This document shows, in pieces, positions 33,531-47,300 of a stretch of DNA of 64,000 nucleotides. The DNA is taken from NCBI GenBank assembly GCA_008802785.1, contig VUYT01000007.1, forward strand, positions 62,001 through 126,000, written 5' to 3'. Origin of the DNA: Symmetrospora coprosmae. Its lineage: Eukaryota > Basidiomycota > Cystobasidiomycetes > Symmetrosporaceae. A model generated the notes under the pieces. It did no database searches. It was not told the DNA's origin and worked only from the letters and a program-made list of their open reading frames with translations. Position numbers and translations under genes: made by a program. Numbering within the stretch: the stretch's first letter is position 1; every line of letters begins with the position of its first letter.

Positions 33531-36314
33531 ATGTCACAGGTCAAGCTCGAGGTGCGACACTGCGACCGTGGACCCAAAGCTGGCAGCTTTGACCCAAGGC
33601 GCACCATCTGAGCTGTCCCTCCTTTGATCCACATAGGTGCACGCCTCTCCGCAGCCGGTAAAGACGCTCAAGCACCATATACTCACCCAATGGCGAAAGA
33701 GCGACGCAAGCGCCGAATTCAAGCAATCCGTCGACGACTTCCTCGCGGCCCTTCCTCTGGTCACGAGCCTCATTGCGCCGCTTTCTACGCTCTATGATAT
33801 TCCTGGACTCACTCAGCGGTGGTATACCTTCAATGGCGAAGAGGTCTCGGATCCTCCGGCCAACGTTGCGCTCTCAGCCGTTGGTGAGCTGGAAGAACAT
33901 CGAGTCGAAAGCCTCAGAGGCCGGACTAATGCCCTACTCATCTACAACAGGACTGGCTTTCAATGCAATAGCGAACGCAGCTCTTGTCTATCGTTTCTCG
34001 GCGAGCACGAAGCACAGGAAGCCGGCGGTATTGCTTTCGACAGCTTGTTGGGTCATCAAGGTATGGCCAGAGCCAGTCCAGACGAGTCCGGCGCGCAAAA
34101 GCGTAAGCTGACTGATCCTGCCGCAGGGTATAATTGCTGTCGTCAACCTATGTATCTATGGAGCGCGGACGCGAAACGCAGAGTTAGTTTCCCTTCGATG
34201 ACACGCTCGCGGAGAATGCTGACGCACGCCACTGCGGAACAGGGGATATGCCTACAGCACCGGCTTCTGGTGTGCTGTGCTTTCGGCTATTCTGGCGTCC
34301 TTGAACGCCATGGTACTGGTGGTTTATGCGGCCTATATGCGCCGAGCGGCCTGGAGGGACAACCGGAAGATCCAAGTTCAGGGACGGCATTTCGTCGTGA
34401 GTTCCAGCCTGACTACTCCGTATGCTGTCCGTTCGCAATGCCGACCATCCAGCGCAGCTATCCGAGCTACTCCTCTTCTGGATCATCGCCGTCTGGGCTC
34501 TCATCTTCTCACGAATAGAACACTGGCAATATTTCGATGCCGTCTACTTCTGCGTCGTCACTACCCTGACTTGTGGCTTTGGAGATTGTTGGTCCTCTAG
34601 GCTTGATTCGCTGGCCCTTTCGGCGAGAGCGATCGGAAGGACGGCAAGATGCAGCGCGCTGATTCTTTCCTACCGACACCAAACAGACTCTCCTACTGTC
34701 ACCTCCACCAAGGTTCTCACTTTTCCCTTCGCTCTCGTCTCTATTGCCGGTGAGTCTAGCCTGACTAGGCCGCTCCAGCGCTCAGAGCTCCAGCCGTGGG
34801 ACGTCCCGACCCACTCACTGATCCCATCAATTTGTAACCAGCTCTGGCGACACAAGTCAGCGCAATCATCGGGTACTTCTCCGACCGTGCCGTAAAACGA
34901 AAGACTCGCTGGCGGGCGGCGTATGAAAAGCGAAGCTTTCACGAGCGCGACAACTTGCACCCGTCAGACGAGCTCATTGCCGAGATGGACTTCCTGCGAC
35001 AGCTGGTCATGCAAGAGAACGCGGCTTCACGGCTCTACGACCTTATTTTGAGCCTCTTCGCGTTCTCTGCCTTCTGGTGTGTCGGCGCCGTCGTCTTTTC
35101 CAAAACGGAGGGATGGACGTACGGCGACTCGCTATACTTTAGCTATGTCTTCTTCTTGACTGTTGGATACGGTGATCTGAGCCCGGAGAGCTCTGCTGGT
35201 AAGGTCTTCTTCGTCATATACGCACTCATTGCAGGTAAGTCCAGCGATTTCATCTTGGCACTTCCAGCTATTTGATACTGAAGTGCCGACCATCCCACAG
35301 TACCCATCGTATGTTCATGAGTAGAGGACAGGAGACGTGCTGAGTAGCGACCAAGACTGAGCATCAACTTCGCCATCCAGGTGGCCTCCTTCGCGGTGCA
35401 GACCGTCACTGCCGTCTGGCAAGCCGGGCGTGAGCGCAGACTGGAGAAGAACAAGGTCAAGATGGGCCTCGTGCCAGCAATGGACCGCTCTGCGACCATC
35501 GCCGTTCAAAGCAAGTCCCGCGAACGAGGAAGTCCACCACAAACGGAAGACTCTGAACATTCGGACGATGATGAAGAAGAGGTTGAGATCCGGCCATTCC
35601 TGAGCCACGCTGAGCTGGTGGTGCAGGTGCACAAGCAGCGCGGTTATGTGGCTATCCTGGCCGAGGATATCCACTCGCGGGCTTCGCCTGACCTCGGGGA
35701 TGTCCTACGAGTGGACTCGGTGGATATTCATACCAAGGTCAGCGCGTCCCAAACGGATCTGCCTGATCCTCCTCGTGACTCCGGCTTGACCGACGATGGT
35801 CAGCACGACGACGCAAGCTGCAGAAGGGAGGAGGAGCGGAAGCTGCTTTGCGAAATGCTCGAGCTTATGGGTAATGAGCTTTCCCGATACCCGCTTCGGA
35901 TGGGATCAGCTGACACGGCTTTCGTCACTTCATGCTCAGGACGACTCGAGGTCAGAGCGAGGCGGATGCTCATCGACAAGCTGGAACCTGGCAGTCGGAG
36001 CCGCCTTCTGCTGCAGGCCGACAAGAACGTAACCGAGCGGACGGTCGAATTGCTCTCGGGCGAAACTATAGGCACGCCCAGCCTGCCCTCCGGCAATCTG
36101 AACGACCTGCAAGAGATACAGTAAGTCACCCGTCAGCTATCTTGCGGCGTTGGGACGAGGCTCAGAACGCTTACCGTTTTGGTCGAACAGCGCTTATCGG
36201 TCAACATGGGCGGAGCTGCTCGTAGCAGGGACGCGGTTGCAGCGCTTGCAAGGCATCGACCAGCTTATACACGAAAGGCGGCGAGGGGTTCCTTACGGCC
36301 CTGATGTACAATGA
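33531..36314 (+). CDS. TOK-type two-pore outward-rectifier K+ channel, copy 1
   Basis: Twelve exons (33531-33551, 33637-33883, 33951-34060, 34127-34182, 34243-34396, 34458-34587, 34687-34749, 34842-35234, 35301-35308, 35381-35870, 35940-36120, 36191-36314) give 658 residues. The plan follows fungal TOK1: several helices, pore 1 (VVTTLTCGFGD at 34557-34586), helix KVLTFPFALVSIA, pore 2 (FFLTVGYGDLSP around 35153-35182), then a charged cytosolic tail. Pore 2 is canonical; pore 1 has Cys where TOK1 has Ile/Val (T-C-G-F-G-D). TOK channels release K+ at depolarised plasma membrane. Exon 9 is only 8 nt. The 69-nt intron 35871-35939 contains no in-frame stop. Copy 2 follows 240 bp downstream on the same strand. 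Confidence 0.88.
35301..35308 (+). other. 8-nt microexon in TOK copy 1
   Basis: TACCCATC between a CCCACAG acceptor and a GTATGT donor. With the flanking bases it encodes V-P-I, exactly matching VPI in copy 2, where this sequence is continuous with the next exon. Confidence 0.75.
36111..36236 (+). repeat. 3' tract shared by the two TOK copies (copy 1 side)
   Basis: From the end of exon 11 through the 70-nt last intron into exon 12, this matches 39159-39284 with 2 mismatches in the intron. The exon sequence just after it differs much more. Confidence 0.85.
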
Positions 36315-36557
36315 GCGCCAGTACTCTGTTGACTGTACTATATTGCAATGCGCTGGATGACATCATATAGGGTTGCCGTCCTTTCTGCGGGTACTTGAGT
36401 GCGGCTGACCTCCGAGTGTTCGCGTCTGAGCGAACTCGCTTGCGGACATGTTGGCACACCTTGCTTCGCTCAAGTGCCTCGCATCTCGGATTATACACAG
36501 CTACAACCTCGCTGTGTAGCCCGTGCCCCGGCACTCGCTCAGTGTCTCTGCTGCAGA

Positions 36558-39362
36558 ATGCAAGAGGCCAAGCTCAAGGTGCGAAGTGCCATGCATCCAA
36601 GTGCTTCTCGCGATTGAAGCGCGTTTCCGCCGTCTGAACGCCCGCACGCTTCCTCGCGTATCTCGCAGGTGCACAACTCGCCGCAACCAGTGAAGACTCT
36701 GACGCGACACATCCGCAACCAATGGCGCAAAACCGACGCGAGCGCCGAGTTCAGGGAGTCCGTCAAGGACTTCATGGAGGCACTACCGCTCATCACGGCT
36801 CTCAGCGCTCCGATATCCACTCTCTACGATATTCCTGGCCTCACGCAGCCATGGTATTCGTACAATGGTCGAGAGATCCCTGACCGGTCTGCCAATCTTG
36901 CCCTGTCCGCAGTCGGTAAGGCGGTGCTGAGCGACGATTTCGGGACGCTCTCGGAGGCTACCAGCGCACGTCACTGATGTCAATGTGTTCAGGATTGGCC
37001 TTCAATGCCATAGCCTCCGCGGCTCTGGTCTACCGTTTCTCCGTGCGTGGGAAGCATGGAAAGCTGGCCGTGTTATTCGCCACCGGATGCTGGGTCATCA
37101 AGGTAGGACCCGCTTGCGTCGTCGTCGATCAGAGTATGCGCTAATACTGCGGACGACAGGGCGTCGTTGCGGTCGTCAATTTGTCCATCTTTGGTGCAAG
37201 AACTCGAAATCAAGAGTGGGTCGCCGCGAGCGTCGTTTCGCAAGAAAGGCGGGCAACTGGCTTATATTGACTGCTACCATACAGCCCCTTTGATTACAAT
37301 ACCGGCTTCTGGTGTGCTGTTGCATCAGCCATCCTGGCCTCACTCAATGCTGTCGTGCTCGTTGTCTATGCCTTCTGGATGCGAAAAGCCGCCTGGCAGG
37401 ACAATCGGAGAGTACAGGTTCAAGGACGGCATTTCGTCGTGCGTACAACCAGGATCTGCCCCTCAAATACGAGAGCGTGACATGCTGAGAGTATACTGCA
37501 GCTTTCCGAGCTGTTCCTGTTCTGGATCATTGCCATCTGGGCACTGATCTTCTCACGCATCGAGAACTGGGAGTATTTCAATGCCATCTACTTCTGCGTT
37601 GTCACTACGCTGACAGTAGGATTTGGAGACTGTAAGTCCCTTATACTGCTTGGGGGCAACAGAGGTACAAACCGCCTAGGGTGCGTGCGAAACAGTTGAC
37701 ATTTCGGAACCGCCCTCATGCCGCCTCGTCTCGCACCACGTGCGCATGTGCATCACCTTCCCGTCGAATAGTCTACCCTACGGGCCCGGCTACCAAGATC
37801 CTGAACTTCCCATTCGCGCTCGTGTGCATTGCAGGTGAGCTCAGCATCATAAGCGGGCTAGCCGTGTGACAGCCGTCCTGGTACTGAGATTCCTGTTTTC
37901 TGCAGCGCTGGCTTCCCAGGTCAGCGCAATCGTCGGATTCTTCTCCGCGCGCGCTGTCAGGAGGAAGGTCCGATGGCGAGCTGCTTACGAAAAGCGGAGC
38001 TTCACCGAGTGCGACAACCTGGATCCGTCAGACGAGCTCGTGGCCGAGATGGAATTTCTGCGCCAGCTTGCTATGCAGGAGAATGCAGCCTCGCGTCTCT
38101 ACGATCTCATCCTCAGCCTTGTGGCGTTCACAACCTTCTGGCTGCTTGGGGCAGTCGTCTTCAGCAAGGCGGAAGGATGGACGTACGGAAACTCCGTCTA
38201 CTTCGTCTACACCTTCGCCCTTACCTTGGGGTACGGCAACCTTTTCCCTACATCCAATGCTGGCAGGGTCTTCTTTGTCGTTTACGGACTTATCGCAGGT
38301 GAGCTCAACATAGTCAACCTCTTCACCCCGAGCTCTTCGCCCGCTAATCTGACATGTGCGGATTCCAGTGCCAATCATAGCATCTTTTGCTATTCAGACG
38401 GTTACGGCAGTGATGGAAGCGGTGCGCGAGAGCAGACTAGAGAAGCACCAGATCCAGTATGGCCTCCTGCCAAAGCTGGAGACTTCCGCCACCATCACCG
38501 TGCAAGCGAAATCGTGCGGGCGAGCAAGGCCGCCACAGGCAGAAGATGATGAAGAAGATGGGCACGGGGATAAGATTGATGTTCGCCCATTCCTGAGCCA
38601 TTCCGAGCTTGTTGTGCAAGTGCACAAGCAGCGCGGCAATGTGCCCATCTCGTCCAAGGCCGGGCGGTCCGGTGCGGAAACTGGCCCGACAGAGGCTGCA
38701 TCACAAGCCTCGGCCCTCGAGAGCGCAGATGCAAACAGCACAGCAGTCCAAGGGGCGGCCGTCTCAAAGGGAAAGGGGGACGTTAAGGAGACAGACCTCC
38801 CTGCTCCTTCTCATCAATCCGATTCCACCGTAACCGACCTCGATCCAGTCGATGCATCAAAGCCGGAGCAGAGCGACGAGTATAAGCTTCTGAAGGAAAT
38901 CCTCGAGCTGAGCCGTCAGTCGCGTCCCTGATTGCAGAAGGGTAGAGCAAATGCTGATAGGGGCGCCCTCGCTCATGCCCAACGCAGTCCGCCTGGAAAT
39001 AAGAGCGAGGCGGATCATGATTGCCAAGTTGGAGCCAGGTAGTCAGAGTCGTCTTCTCCTACAGGCCGACAGCAACGTCACACAGCGGACTGTTGAGCTC
39101 TTGTGTGGCGAGACTGTAGCAACACCCGGTTTGCCTTCCGACACCCTGAATGATCTTGAAGAGATACAGTAAGTCACCCGTCAGCTATCTTGCGGCGTTG
39201 GAACGAGGCTCAGAACGCTTACCGTTCTGGTCGAACAGCGCTTACCGGTCAACATGGGCGGAGCTGCTCGTAGCGGGGACGCGACTTCAACGCCTGGAGG
39301 GCAACGACCAGCTTATGCACGAAAGGCGTCGTGGCGTCCCTTACGGCCCCAATGTACAATGA
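36558..39362 (+). CDS. TOK-type two-pore K+ channel, copy 2 (tandem paralogue)
   Basis: Eleven exons (36558-36578, 36669-36915, 36993-37102, 37160-37215, 37285-37438, 37502-37631, 37772-37834, 37906-38298, 38369-38914, 38988-39168, 39239-39362) give 674 residues. The first eight exons have the same lengths as copy 1, a clear sign of tandem duplication. Pore 1 is canonical (VVTTLTVGFGD, to 37630). Pore 2 reads ALTLGYGNLFPT (38217-38252): the usual Asp after GYG is Asn. So each copy departs from consensus in a different pore. The cytosolic tail is longer than in copy 1 by a Ser/Ala-rich insert. The region coding VPIIASFAIQ is uninterrupted, unlike copy 1. The last intron is almost identical to that of copy 1. 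Confidence 0.87.
39159..39284 (+). repeat. 3' tract shared by the two TOK copies (copy 2 side)
   Basis: Counterpart of 36111-36236. An intron better conserved than the adjoining exons points to recent conversion between the copies. Confidence 0.85.
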
Positions 39363-39580
39363 GGACATCAGATAAACCCCTGTAGCCATTTCTATGCTGT
39401 AACATAGGTCCTGGAAGCTTGTCCCCTCTTCCTCGCCACGCCTGCCCTCGTCCCCGTCACGGTCAGCGTCACGAGATTCGGTGGGTTGCGGCTTTCCTCT
39501 CTTCCGGAGTCATCGAGCTCGAAGAGCAGGGCAAAGACGCTTGCCGCGACAGCTTCGCACGAGAGGGAGACTAGCCCGTC

Positions 39581-42500
39581 ATGGAGGACGACGCCCAGCT
39601 CGTGCAGCAGCTGGGCGGGTTCGCGCTCGACAACTTCCTGTCCGAGTTCACGGGCGAGCAGAACATCCGCGCCTCTGGCCTGTCGGCGCTCGGTCTCAGC
39701 GGGAAGGGCCGCGGGCGAGCTGTGGATGCCAGTCAGATCTACAGCGAGCGCTACGAGGACGACGATGTCGCTGGACCCTCGTCTGGACCGCGGAGAGCCG
39801 GCGGTGTGCCTGCAGGCGCTCGGGATGGGAGCGAGGGCATTGACTGGGAAGATGAAATCGACAGGGAGATGGACGAGGAGGACGCATTGATGGGTGGAAC
39901 ATCGTCCTCTGCCTATGCTGCACCCTTGAGCAAAGCAACAAAGCTGCGAGGCGAGGACGACGACTTTGACGAGGATGACGATGCAGTGGAAGCGGGACCA
40001 CCTGCACGGAACGCTTTCGGTCAGCAGCAGCAACAGCCTCTCCCCGCCGATGGGATGGAAGACGAGGCAGATTATATGCACATGGTCAAACAGGAGGAAA
40101 CAGAGGAGGACGCGGCCGAGCTGGCAGCGCAGCAGCAGCTGTTCCAGCAGTCCATCGCGCGGATGCAGGCAGCCCAACAGCCTCAAGATCAGCAGGACCT
40201 CCTGGCAGCTTTCAGAGAGCCGAGCGCGCCTCTCATGGACGTCGCGACGCTCTATCCGTCCTTTGCGCCAGATAAGGTGCTGAACTTTACAGAGCTCTTT
40301 GTGCCGCGGCCCAGGAAGCGAGCCAGAATTGACCCAAGTGCCGAGCTGTGTGAGTCCCTGGCTCGATAGGTCCAACGCCGGTGCTAGAAGTGGGTATGCT
40401 GATACTACCACCGACTCGGAACGTGCAGACCCGCTGCCGCAACCGTCCAACTACTCAACAGCGCCATCAACACGCGACTTCCGTTCACACAGGCGGTATG
40501 ACCGCACGTCGGCAGCAGCGCAGTACCTCCTAGACGCATTGCGCGAGCAGGCAGAGGGCCAGTCGGATGATGACGGAGAGCACGAGGAGGCAGCCTTCGA
40601 GCAGCTGGTGCGGTCAGCGAATGCTGCTGGCTGGAAGCTACCGCTCAACATGTCGAGTGAACAGGACGCCATCAAGTTCGAGGATTGGGAGGACAAGGTC
40701 GTATGGGACAACGACTCCCAGATGCAGCTGGTCCTAGCGACCCAAAAGCCGGAGGCGAGAAAGTTTGGTTTCAAGAATGCAGACCTCGAATCGGGAGACT
40801 GGGCGCGCAGCGTTATATGGAGCGAACGCGCGCCATTCAAAGACTTCACAAAGCTGCAGTTGAATCTCAACGATCCTGCTGGCCCTGCCGCGTATCCGCG
40901 CAAGGAGATTCCGTGGGAAGAGACAGCGGCCGCGAAGCAGATTGCGGCTCGCAGCGCAGCTGGTACCATCCGCGATCCGTTCAATCTCGCCAACGACAAG
41001 CTATACGAAGTGCGACGTGAACAAAAGAAGACGGTCCGGCAGACGTTTGGTCAGCTCGAGGTCCAGCATACGTACCCTGCGATGAAGCTGCAATTCCCTT
41101 GGTACAAGACACAGCTCAGCAAAGCCGAGCTCAGGTCATTTCATCGGCTGCCAATCCAATTCGCAACGAACATTCCGCTATCGTTCTCAAAAGTGCGCTC
41201 GAGCAAAAAGAAGAAGGACAAGGCGGGTAGGAAGCTCAAGAAGGACACGGTCGGAGCCGAGGCTTTCAGGACCATGGGGGATATCAGCCTCAGCAATACC
41301 GGCTCTTTCGTTCTGCTGGAGTACAGCGTGAGTAGCAGCGGATCCACGCAGGCTTGACCTGGTCCCACAGCTGATGCACGTTACGTTGGATTGACTGGCA
41401 TGCAGGAGGAGAACCCGATGATCATCTCCAACATCGGCATGGGCAATATCATTGTGAATTACTACCGCAAGACGGACGCTTCCGACTCGTACATCCCCAA
41501 GGCCGAAATGGGCGAGCCGTTCCTCCTCGACCCTTCAGACGAATCTCCCTTCATGCGCTTCGGCGAGGTCGAGCCGGGGCAGATGATCCCCGCTCTCTAC
41601 AACATGCTCGTACGGGCTCCGCTGTTCAAGCACCACGCCTACGACACGGATTTCGTTGTGGCCAAGACGACCATCGATGGTGTGACCAAGTTCTACGTGC
41701 GAGACATCAAGCACGTCTTTGTTGTCGGGCAGACCTATCCTCGCAAAGATGTCCCCGGTCCTCAATCGCGCAAGCTTACATCGACAGCCAAGTTTCGCCT
41801 GCAAAGTATCGCCTACAAGCTCGTTAGCAAGAGCTCTCGTCAGCGTGTCAAGATCGGTCGACTGCTCAAATACTTTCCGGATCAGACAGAGATGCAAATG
41901 CGGCAGCGTCTGAAGGAGTTCATGGAGTACAACAGAGCTGGAGAGGACCAGGGGTACTGGAAGATTAAGCAGGGCAAGCTGCCAGAAGAGGAGGAGCTCT
42001 TCAAACTCATTGGTCCAGAGGAGGTCATCATGTCAGAGAGCACCCAGGTTGGACAGAGGAACCTGCTCGATGCCGGACTCAGCTCGACTGTGGACGAAGA
42101 CAAGGGCAAAGACACCGAGGAGAGTCAGCTCGACATACGCCAGCAACTTGCGCCATGGTTCACGTCCAAGAACTTCCTCAACGCCACGCAGAACAAGGCC
42201 ATGCTGAAATTACACGGAGAAGGCGACCCATCCAGTCGCGGAGAAGGCTTCTCCTTTCTTCGTGTCTCGATGAAGGATATCTTCCTTCGGGCGGGCGAAA
42301 AGATGGAGGACCGCCTCGCCGAGATTGAAGCCCGGCCAAAGTCTGCGCATCGATACAACGTTGCCGAGCAGCAGGCTATCTATCGAGCCGAGATCGACCG
42401 CATCTGGAAGGCGCAGTTTGACGCTCTCAGCAGCCCGTACGAGCCGATGGTCACCGAGGCAGACGAAATCCGGTGGCGTAACGAGGAGCTCAAGATGGAG

Positions 42501-43441
42501 AAGGAACAGGGAAGCGCCTACATTCCCATAGAGGCAATGTCTCCAGGCGGTGGCGACGGGGATGACAGCGACAACGATGGGCAGGGCAGCAAGAGCGCCT
42601 CTCCGGCTGCTGCTCAAGCTGCTGCAAAAGCTCAAGCTGCTGCACGGGCTGCTGCGGTAGCCGCAGCCAATTCAGGTCCGCCCAAGGTCCTCCGAATCCG
42701 GCGTCTTGTGAGTCTTCTACCGAAGCTGCATTGGTCGGCTCGACAGCAACGCTGAAAGACCTATGGCTCGGCTTGTCGCGCAGATTGATGGAGTTTGGCG
42801 ATCCGAGATTGTGCGAGATCAGGGCGTCATAAAGGGGTACATGCGACAGCGACTCGCGCGCGATGCTGACGAAGAGGAAGAGCCAGAGAACCTGGCCTTC
42901 AATGGTGATCCTGTCCATGACGCCGCGGTCAGGAAGAAGTAGGTTCATGTTTTTTCGGGGTCGACCAAGGTGTTTCTGCGCTACTGGCTGATATCTGCCC
43001 CATCCGCCTCTCAGACTGGCCGAACAGCTAGACAAATTGCGCAAGAACCAGGAAAGGCGATTGCAGAGGAAGAATGCCAAGATGGGCGTCACAGGTGATG
43101 TCTTCCTGCCGGGAGGCAAGAAGGTCAAGAACGAGACGACGGTGAGCTTGGGGCTTTCAGCTAGGATGTGTGTCGATGTGGCTGACGTTGGACTGTGGCT
43201 TGTACCGCAGAGACGCTGCGGAAATTGTGGTCAGATCGGACACATGAAGACGAATCGGAAGTGTCCGAAGTGGGCCGTGAGTCTTTGTCCGTCACACCTG
43301 ACACGCGGTCAGCGCTGATCCTTCAGTCATCCACAGGAATTCAACGCTGCGAACAATCAGCAACCGGGGGCCAACGCCTCCGCGGACCTTGGCAACCCGT
43401 TTGCGGTCGGACTGCCAGGCCTCGCTCAGGGAGACGAGTAA
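39581..43441 (+). CDS. TAF1: TFIID subunit TAF1 (fungal TAF145/TAF130 type)
   Basis: Seven exons (39581-40349, 40429-41327, 41406-42707, 42784-42938, 43015-43141, 43211-43276, 43337-43441) give 1140 residues. The N-terminus (VQQLGGFALDNFLSEF) and acidic stretch match the TAF1 N-terminal region that contacts TBP. The central conserved TAF1 domain is clear: ENPMIISNIGMGNIIVNYYR, GEVEPGQMIPALYNMLVRAP, FYVRDIKHVFVVGQ, RLLKYFPDQTEMQMRQRLKE, VLRIRRLIDGVWRSEIVRD. A CCHC zinc knuckle (CGNCGQIGHMKTNRKCP) lies near the end. It lacks the tandem bromodomains of animal TAF1, as is normal for fungi. TAF1 is the scaffold of TFIID at RNA polymerase II promoters. Confidence 0.95.
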
Positions 43442-44394: not shown

Positions 44395-47300
44395 ATGTCC
44401 CCTGCCTCTACTCCACCGAGAGTCATGCTCGACGGCCTCGACCTGGCGTCGACCTCTGCGACCACGTCCAGGGAGCGCGAGCTGGAAAGGTTGAGAGCCC
44501 AGCTCGAGAACTCGGACCTGGCAAGGCAGTCAAGCCAGACGAGACGCAACCTCACAAGTAGCACTGGCACCGACGAGACGGTCGACCTCAACCTCCTCCA
44601 TCCTCTGGCTGAAAAGCCCGGAACAGGCGATTCCACCGCGGCTCAAGATAGGGGCAATCATGCGGGCGGAACAGAGTCGGGAGGGACCGAGAGCCCGGTT
44701 GCGGCTAAGAAGCGGAGGGTGCAGTGGATTGGTCTTGCCGATGAAGCTCGTAAGCGTAAGCCGTACTTGGAAGGGGATGGGTGGGCCAGACTTGCTAACA
44801 TCCCTCTCGCCCGGCGAGCGCAGAAGGGGAGAAGCGCCGCATGAGCGACGTCGAAGCTCTTGCGGCCGCCGCTCTGGCAGCGGAGACGGGCTCTACAAAT
44901 CACCCTGGACACGTTTCTGTGTCTGTGTGAGTGTAGACGCGTCCGCCAATGCCACTCTTCGCGGGAACGGACTGATAAGCCGAACTCACACAGCCCCTCG
45001 ACCCCTGCCGATGAGCCCTATGGTTTCGACTGGACGGGCACTAGCGGTGCGTCCGATGGCATGCGGACACCCGGTATTGCGTCCGATCCTGTCACCCCAG
45101 AGGTCTCGCGTCCGGGCACGCCGGAGGAGCACCTCCCCATTCCATCGGGAGAGAGGGATGGATTACCGCTACCTGCGGGGAAGCGTGGCCGCACTTTCAC
45201 ACGCGAAGCTGCCAAGCTGGTCGCGATGCACAAGGCGAAGAATGCCTTCCTCGGCAGGAAGCCTGGACAGTCACGAGCACACGCCAGCGCCAGCTCTTCT
45301 GCCGATACCTCGCCCGTCCGCTCCAAGAATGTCCCCGGGCCGAGTAAATCTGCACTCAAGGCACGGGAAGCGCTATACAATGACGAGCATACTATCAGCA
45401 CGCCCGCGCCACCTGTGCCTGGAGGGAGTGGCGTTCTATCAACCCTCCTGAAGCTCTATGAACAGCCACAGAGCAACCACTCTTCTCAGGCCACTCTCGT
45501 CGCGGGGTCTTCCCGAGCTCCCAGTCCCGACCACATCGAGGCATCTCCCAGTGTGTCCGCTGCCGGCCCACAGCAATCCCAGCACCGTGCACCAGCGACT
45601 CTTGACACGCCGCCCGCCTTCTCGGAGAAGAGACAGAGATCAAATCCCCAGCTCAGCGGCTTCTTCAGAGACGCAGCTGTCAAGTGGCACGATTATCGAG
45701 ATGACAGACCGGCCATTGCGAAAAGCCATGCCGGCGTCTTCGGTGCCCTCGGCGCTTCAAGCTTTGCTCTGGCTGGAGCAGCGACACCAACCGGCAGTTC
45801 TGTGGCACCGGCTCCTCAGCGGCCGGGCTTCCGCCTCAAGTAGGCTATGCCGTGCCTTTGATAGCCCTGGCGAACGAGGGCGTGCTGACGATTTGATCAT
45901 GGTCTACATTGTTAGCCGCTACTCGATGCCAGAGGTGCCGACGCAGAAGAGCTTCAGCCGTACATCTTCGCCGGCTGCATCAGGCACGGTCACTCCAACC
46001 TCTGCTTCGCCACCTATGACCCCTGGAGGAGGCATCTATCAGCGTCGTGTTGGATCATCGCTGAATCTGTCCACGCTTGCCAAGGCGCCTGTCTCGCTCG
46101 CGAAGGGATCAGAGCGGCTCGCAAAAGAAAACTTGGACCCGAAGAAGTACCACCGCGAGTCGAAGGTACTGCGTGCCAACAAGACATCAGCGTCGAATAG
46201 CCGGCCGAGCACGCCGCAGAACGAATACGAGCTGGATGAGAAGACCCGTGCCAACACATTCGCCGCGAAAGCCATGTCGACGGCTCTTCCGCCCGCAAAT
46301 GCTGCGACAGCCCTCCGCAAAAAGAAGGACAAGCGCCGGCAGGAGGAGATCTTCATAACGATGCACGTTGCAGCTATTCTGCAACGGCAGGACTTCATTC
46401 TTCGGCTCGCGCGCGCCCTCATGATGTTCGGTGCGCCACCACACCGTATCGAGACGCAGATCCAGCAGACGGCCAAGGTGCTCGAGATCGAATGCCAAGT
46501 CATCTACATCGTCAATTTCATGATTGTGTCGTTTGTCGACTCATCTTCGCATACCTCCGATATCCGGATGGTCAAGCAGGGCGCCGGTCTCGATCTACAT
46601 CGACTGAACGAGATTGCCATTCTCCACTGGGAAGTGATGCACGACAAGATCGGTGTCGCTGAGGCATCGGAGGAAATCTCCAATCTTATGACCGCCAAAC
46701 CGCACTGGAACAACTTGACACTCTGCTTCTTTGGAGCATGCTGCAGTGCTTGCATCAGCATAGCAGCCTTCAATGCCTCATTCATCGACCTTCTTGTATC
46801 CGCCGGTCTTGGAAGCATCCTGGTGGCCATTCAGTGCTTCATCACGGCCAAGAGCGATATCTTGAGCTCAATTTTCGAGATTATCGTCACAACAGTAAGT
46901 CCAGCGGCGAGGGATACCATGACTCGTCACACTAACGCTAGAATCGTCAGATCATCTCATTTGTGGCGGCAGCTCTCGCCTCTACCGAGATATTCTGCTA
47001 TGCTGCTATCACGTCAAGTTCCATCGTCCTCATCTTGCCTGGGTGGTGCGTATCAGCCTCAGCTTGCTGTGCGCATGTCCGGCTGATCGCCTATCTCAAT
47101 TGACAGGCCGACTTGCACGGCTGCTCTTGAGCTCCAGTCACGGTCCCTCGTCTCCGGAAGCGTCCGCCTCGTCTACGCAGTCGTCTACGCTCTCTTCCTC
47201 GGCTTCGGTATCTCGCTTGGAGCGCAGCTCTGGACCCTCTTTTCGGGACAGGAAGGTACGTCGTATCCGACTCGAGCATGTCAGGACAACCTGCTGATGG

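Follow-up and report, generated by a model that had tools for sequence, protein, structure and literature searches.

The two adjacent TOK-type genes at positions 33531-39362 probably encode two working outward K+ channels that stem from an old tandem duplication, and the first of them would, judging by its filter and by related channels, have an altered selectivity or gating. The pair consists of kept tandem TOK duplicates, which are of a known kind; the Asn variant in the filter of the second gene (copy 2) is known from working relatives, and the Cys in the filter of the first (copy 1) is worth measuring. The genes were found in a window (the whole stretch of DNA analyzed, 64,000 nucleotides) of Symmetrospora coprosmae with a G+C content of 59%; the host assembly comprises 20.05 Mb in 77 contigs. 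The TOK genes themselves mark the DNA as fungal, and the density of introns in the two genes hints at a basidiomycete.

Copy 1 (33531-36314, forward strand) and copy 2 (36558-39362, forward strand) lie head-to-tail, 243 bases apart. GT-AG spliced models yield 12 exons and 658 amino acids for copy 1 and 11 exons and 674 amino acids for copy 2, and the encoded proteins are 69% identical. A tandem TOK pair between 33531 and 39362 had been proposed in the first-pass annotation, and this is upheld: both genes are full-length when spliced, with their outer ends on exactly these positions. All 10 introns of copy 2 are matched by a copy 1 intron at the same place in the protein alignment. Copy 1 contains one additional intron (35309-35380), absent from copy 2, which creates an 8-nt micro-exon (35301-35308, forward strand) that is required to align V-P-I-V of copy 1 with V-P-I-I of copy 2. 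The codons of the micro-exon, V-P-I, are located close to the last transmembrane (TM) segment. Another intron of copy 1 (35871-35939) is 69 nt long and lies within an open frame (35348-36124); if retained, it would lengthen the cytoplasmic tail by 23 residues.

Immediately after the GFGD codons, copy 1 has an intron (34588-34686, forward strand) with the donor GTTGGT (34588-34593). An intron of copy 2 (37632-37771) is found at the same place, and the preceding exons are of equal length (130 nt in either copy). As the donor is unusual, splicing at the pore-1 intron of copy 1 is not certain. Donors without a purine after GT account for 3 of the 21 in the pair (GTTGGT at 34588, GTTAGT at 34183 and GTCAGT at 38915), one of which belongs to copy 2.

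Downstream of the pair (40299-42755), two open frames match DUF3591 (PF12157; E 1.3e-27 and 2.3e-137), which we take to be the core domain of TAF1 in TFIID. No Pfam match was obtained for the frame at 39575-40369, which may be the first exon of the DUF3591 gene. Further along, the open reading frame at 45458-47086 encodes ThrE (PF06738; E 3.9e-30), a domain of putative threonine/serine exporters.

TOK channels are outward-rectifying K+ channels with eight TM segments and two pores, and two-pore channels act as dimers. In a Pfam search, the PF07885 (Ion_trans_2) pore was identified twice in each copy (E 1.1e-27 for copy 1, 6.2e-25 for copy 2). The top solved relatives of copy 1 are the TOK channel 9pik (E 8.1e-35) and yeast TOK1 (45il, E 1.1e-33), and those of copy 2 are yeast TOK1 (45il, E 2.2e-30) and 9pik (E 1.1e-29); in both copies, the PDB alignments to the TOK channels run through both pores. 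In both proteins, hydropathy analysis with a 19-residue window identified eight TM segments in addition to the pore helices, with P loops between segments 5 and 6 and between segments 7 and 8, and GXG is present in both pores of each copy (GFG and GYG). With eight segments, both copies differ from animal K2P channels, which have four TM segments per subunit. Fungal Shaker-like channels (SKC) are distinguished by the Kv-type Ion_trans domain (PF00520), for which copy 1 reached 16.4 bits, below the cut-off of 25, and copy 2 was not listed.

The filters of copy 1 read TCGFGD in pore 1 (34569-34586, forward strand; Cys codon TGT at 34572-34574) and TVGYGD in pore 2 (35159-35176, forward strand), and those of copy 2 read TVGFGD in pore 1 (37613-37630, forward strand) and TLGYGN in pore 2 (38223-38240, forward strand; Asn codon AAC at 38238-38240). 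Spliced models and codons bear out these letters, which had been read in the first pass. The accompanying statement that each copy alters a different pore is correct, but pore 2 of copy 2 departs twice, as Leu replaces Val/Ile at the second position in addition to the Asn. Against PF07885, pore 1 scores 34.5 bits in copy 1 and 36.7 in copy 2, and pore 2 scores 46.6 bits in copy 2 and 54.2 in copy 1, differences to which other pore substitutions contribute as well, unseparated. Yeast TOK1 and 9pik, used as two outgroups, have Val/Ile and Asp at the positions concerned, so that Cys, Leu and Asn are derived.

The Cys or the Asn may be restricted to this strain or may stem from an error. A change from Asp (GAC) to Asn (AAC) requires a single base, which would be compatible with a sequence or assembly error at that codon. 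The Cys codon (TGT), however, is at least two base changes away from any Val codon (GTN), and silent differences between the copies in the neighboring codons resemble those of genuine divergence. We regard an error at either codon as very unlikely.

Comparison of copy 1 with copy 2 gave dN 0.22 and dS 1.46 by NG86 over 657 aligned codons, and dN 0.21 and dS 1.57 by ML. Saturation of dS indicates that the duplication is old, and a dN/dS near 0.15 that both proteins were kept. Both copies are under purifying selection, which fits two working channels. dN is lower than dS in all eight regions tested, and regional dN/dS values (NG86) are approximately 0.05 for the linker, 0.07 for both S2-S4 and S5-pore 1-S6, 0.20 for S7-pore 2-S8 and 0.32 for the variable tail. 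The cytoplasmic tail is the most diverged part (46% identity). Against the two solved TOK channels, copy 1 scores 123.4 and 119.6 bits and copy 2 scores 106.3 and 108.6 bits; since copy 2 is outscored against both, it is probably the more altered of the two overall.

A simple pseudogene status was rejected for both copies on the basis of the intact spliced frames and the purifying selection. A milder form, in which copy 1 is decaying or silent and its filter Cys and odd splice donor at the pore mark a loss of function, could draw on the GTTGGT donor at pore 1 and on the 8-nt micro-exon. We consider this very improbable, as the frame of copy 1 is full-length over its 12 exons, the excess of dS over dN extends to every region, the protein is closer than that of copy 2 to both solved TOK channels, and donors lacking the purine are not confined to copy 1.

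The similarity between the copies is not evenly distributed. A near-identical tract (36111-36236 in copy 1 and its partner 39159-39284 in copy 2, both on the forward strand) covers the end of exon 11 of copy 1, the whole 70-nt intron and the start of the last exon, with 5 mismatches in 126 bases. In the last paired intron (36121-36190 and 39169-39238), the copies share 68 of 70 bases (z 18.8 vs. shuffled sequence), whereas the other nine of the 10 paired introns retain little of their likeness (z 0.5 to 4.0 vs. shuffled sequence). The top-scoring fragment (36111-36314) contains 19 mismatches in 204 columns and was reached in none of 5000 column shuffles, a procedure that ignores codon structure and the difference between exons and introns. 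In the last exon dS is 0.53, while it ranges from 1.26 to 2.30 across the seven remaining regions. Identity in 80-column windows rises to 0.96 in the tract and is at most 0.82 elsewhere upstream, with 0.81 at pore 1 and 0.65 at pore 2; both pores lie outside the tract. Most likely, the 3' ends were recently homogenized, which gene conversion between the copies would explain most simply; as a rival explanation for the likeness, the intron could be strongly constrained. A dispersed repeat was rejected, as a genome search with 36100-36320 matched the two copies alone. This homogenization is better evidenced than the readings of channel function discussed below.

In the 20.05-Mb genome PF07885 has four matches, every one inside copies 1 and 2, a count that is a lower bound, from a profile search that goes exon by exon. 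The copy 2 protein as genome query yielded 18 matches, all within this contig stretch. No further TOK or two-pore K+ channel gene was found in the 20-Mb genome with these lower-bound counts. PF00520 (Kv, Ca2+ and TRP type channels) had no match in the genome; a Cch1 calcium channel is expected in a fungus, so that intron-split genes may have escaped this search. TOK orthologues were also sought in collections of viral and of genome contigs, neither meant for fungi, with 79 and 33 pattern matches, respectively, and none confirmed. The DNA pattern for TT-hydrophobic-TCG[FY]GDxxP was absent from both collections, and in the viral contigs the Val/Ile filter form and the Val/Ile plus Asn form were likewise absent. 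These zero counts are uninformative on rarity, as the collections offered no working positive control. A shortened filter DNA pattern recovers the window's own pore-1 site of copy 1. In the full-text literature the motif strings TCGFGD and TLGYGN had no match, a weak result given that figures fall outside such a search, and PMC4462678 contains nothing on D292 or D423.

Based on these analyses, we propose that an ancestral TOK gene duplicated in tandem long ago and that purifying selection kept both copies. Each protein most likely dimerizes, in which case four P loops would form one pore, and from TOK function we infer that K+ would leave the cell through each channel upon depolarization. Copy 2 should be K+-selective, since TREK-2 naturally combines one Asn pore with one Asp pore; the Asn of copy 2 could shift gating or K+ sensitivity, like D292N in TOK1. 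In copy 1, the Cys in place of Val/Ile in pore 1 may give a looser or differently gated filter, comparable to Thr118 of TWIK1.

Heterodimers and split conductance, suggested in the first-pass annotation, are possible. If the heterodimer were obligate or preferred, its pore would combine single Cys, Asn and Leu sites, and its properties would be unlike those of either homodimer. In favor of such pairing, the copies adjoin and share 69% of their residues, and two-pore channels can mix: TASK-5, which is silent by itself, functions together with TASK-1 or TASK-3 (PMC11364637), and heteromers have been proposed for Aspergillus TOK channels (PMC3410928). However, each copy has two complete pores, and tandem placement by itself is uninformative on assembly. 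An obligate or preferred heterodimer is in our view unlikely, while being compatible with the proposal of two working channels. Rather improbable is a composite reading in which the Cys filter of copy 1 is dynamically selective (Na+-permeable or redox-sensitive), copy 2 serves as K+-selective partner, heterodimers form, the ratio of the two genes tunes K+/Na+ flux, and gene conversion keeps the tails but not the pores alike.

A less likely explanation than the one we favor, but one that carries appreciable weight, is neutral drift of the filters, with Cys and Asn tolerated, both proteins being ordinary K+-selective TOK channels, and both genes kept for dosage or for different expression or regulation. 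Of the 12 filter residues, 3 are unlike between the copies (25%), close below the 31% across the whole protein, and the greatest divergence, in the tail, points to regulation and not permeation; the natural occurrence of Asn in TREK-2 and in two Aspergillus TOK channels (see below) is in line with this as well. On the other hand, the filter of a K+ channel normally shows much stronger conservation than the remainder of the protein, so that 3 changes in 12 residues exceed mere background, and changes at the site of the Cys alter selectivity in TREK-1 and TWIK1 (see below).

Among known systems, yeast TOK1 (PDB 45il, 45io) and the TOK channel 9pik share the two-pore TOK plan with both copies, and their filters (TVGLGD/TIGYGD and TIGLGD/TIGYGD, respectively) are without the Cys or Asn of copies 1 and 2. 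Unusual TOK filters have been reported before: a TOK channel of Candida albicans is described as having VYG instead of GXG in pore 2 (PMC3410928). Multiple TOK genes are known from Hebeloma cylindrosporum as well, which has three, and two TOK subfamilies have been reported in Asco- and Basidiomycota (both PMC4101882).

For the Asn of copy 2, the closest parallels are TREK channels and TOK homologues of Aspergillus. TREK-2, whose pore 1 reads TIGYGN and whose pore 2 reads TVGFGD, stays K+-selective (PMC5626358), and in the PDB alignments pore 1 of TREK-1 also ends in Asn after GXG. In these alignments TREK pore 1 (GFGN or GYGN) faces pore 2 of both copies, which is the better-scoring of two possible matches. 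The first-pass claim that the Asp after GYG is strongly conserved is too strong for two-pore channels at large, but most of the TOK homologues surveyed keep Asp after the first GXG (PMC3410928), which makes Asn exceptional among TOK channels. Like copy 2, TREK-2 (KCNK10) combines one N pore with one D pore (GYGN/GFGD); it is, however, an animal channel with four TM segments, with the Asn in pore 1 and Ile/Val at the second position, whereas copy 2 has the Asn in pore 2 together with Leu. The same source lists A. flavus EED45164 and A. fumigatus XP_747058 as TOK homologues with Asn after the first GXG, in hosts that carry two or three TOK genes. These channels, compared by published description only, resemble copy 2 in having Asn directly after GXG, but in copy 2 it follows the second. 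In yeast TOK1, the D292N substitution in pore 1 altered gating and K+ dependence (cited in PMC3410928, partial text). All of these cases, TOK1 D292N, TREK and Aspergillus, concern pore 1, whereas the Asn of copy 2 is in pore 2. That the Asn alone would make a broken or exotic filter was rejected, as TREK-2 and the two Aspergillus TOK channels carry it. Asn after GXG is thus a functional state known from other channels, and it may tune gating.

The Cys of copy 1 is the more interesting of the two departures and less usual than the Asn; none of the TOK and TREK pores in the PDB alignments has it at the second filter position. Tandem duplication with a different departure in each copy holds, but these departures are unequal in weight, as Asn is natural elsewhere and changes at the site of the Cys alter selectivity in animal channels. 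In TWIK1 the second filter position is Thr118, which brings Na+ permeability, and T118I abolishes dynamic selectivity and locks the K+-selective state (PMC11079055, passages on this residue). At the equivalent position in pore 2 of TREK-1, I267T results in a Na+-permeable channel (PMC5376757, likewise in part). By analogy with Thr in these animal channels, the Cys is predicted to alter selectivity or gating in copy 1. As its pore 1 has Cys and neither Val nor Ile at the second filter position, copy 1 can be said to have a TWIK1-like filter, one that may work like that of TWIK1, with no membership claimed. TWIK1 (KCNK1) and TREK-1 I267T share with copy 1 such a residue in one pore; they differ in that they have Thr, are animal channels with four TM segments and had their selectivity change measured, whereas copy 1 has Cys and a predicted change. 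If the Cys leaves ion choice unchanged, the gene would show the extent of filter drift tolerated in a kept duplicate. If it changes ion choice, the pair would test how one filter position sets two-pore selectivity, and copy 1 would be a natural fungal counterpart of the dynamic selectivity of TWIK1.
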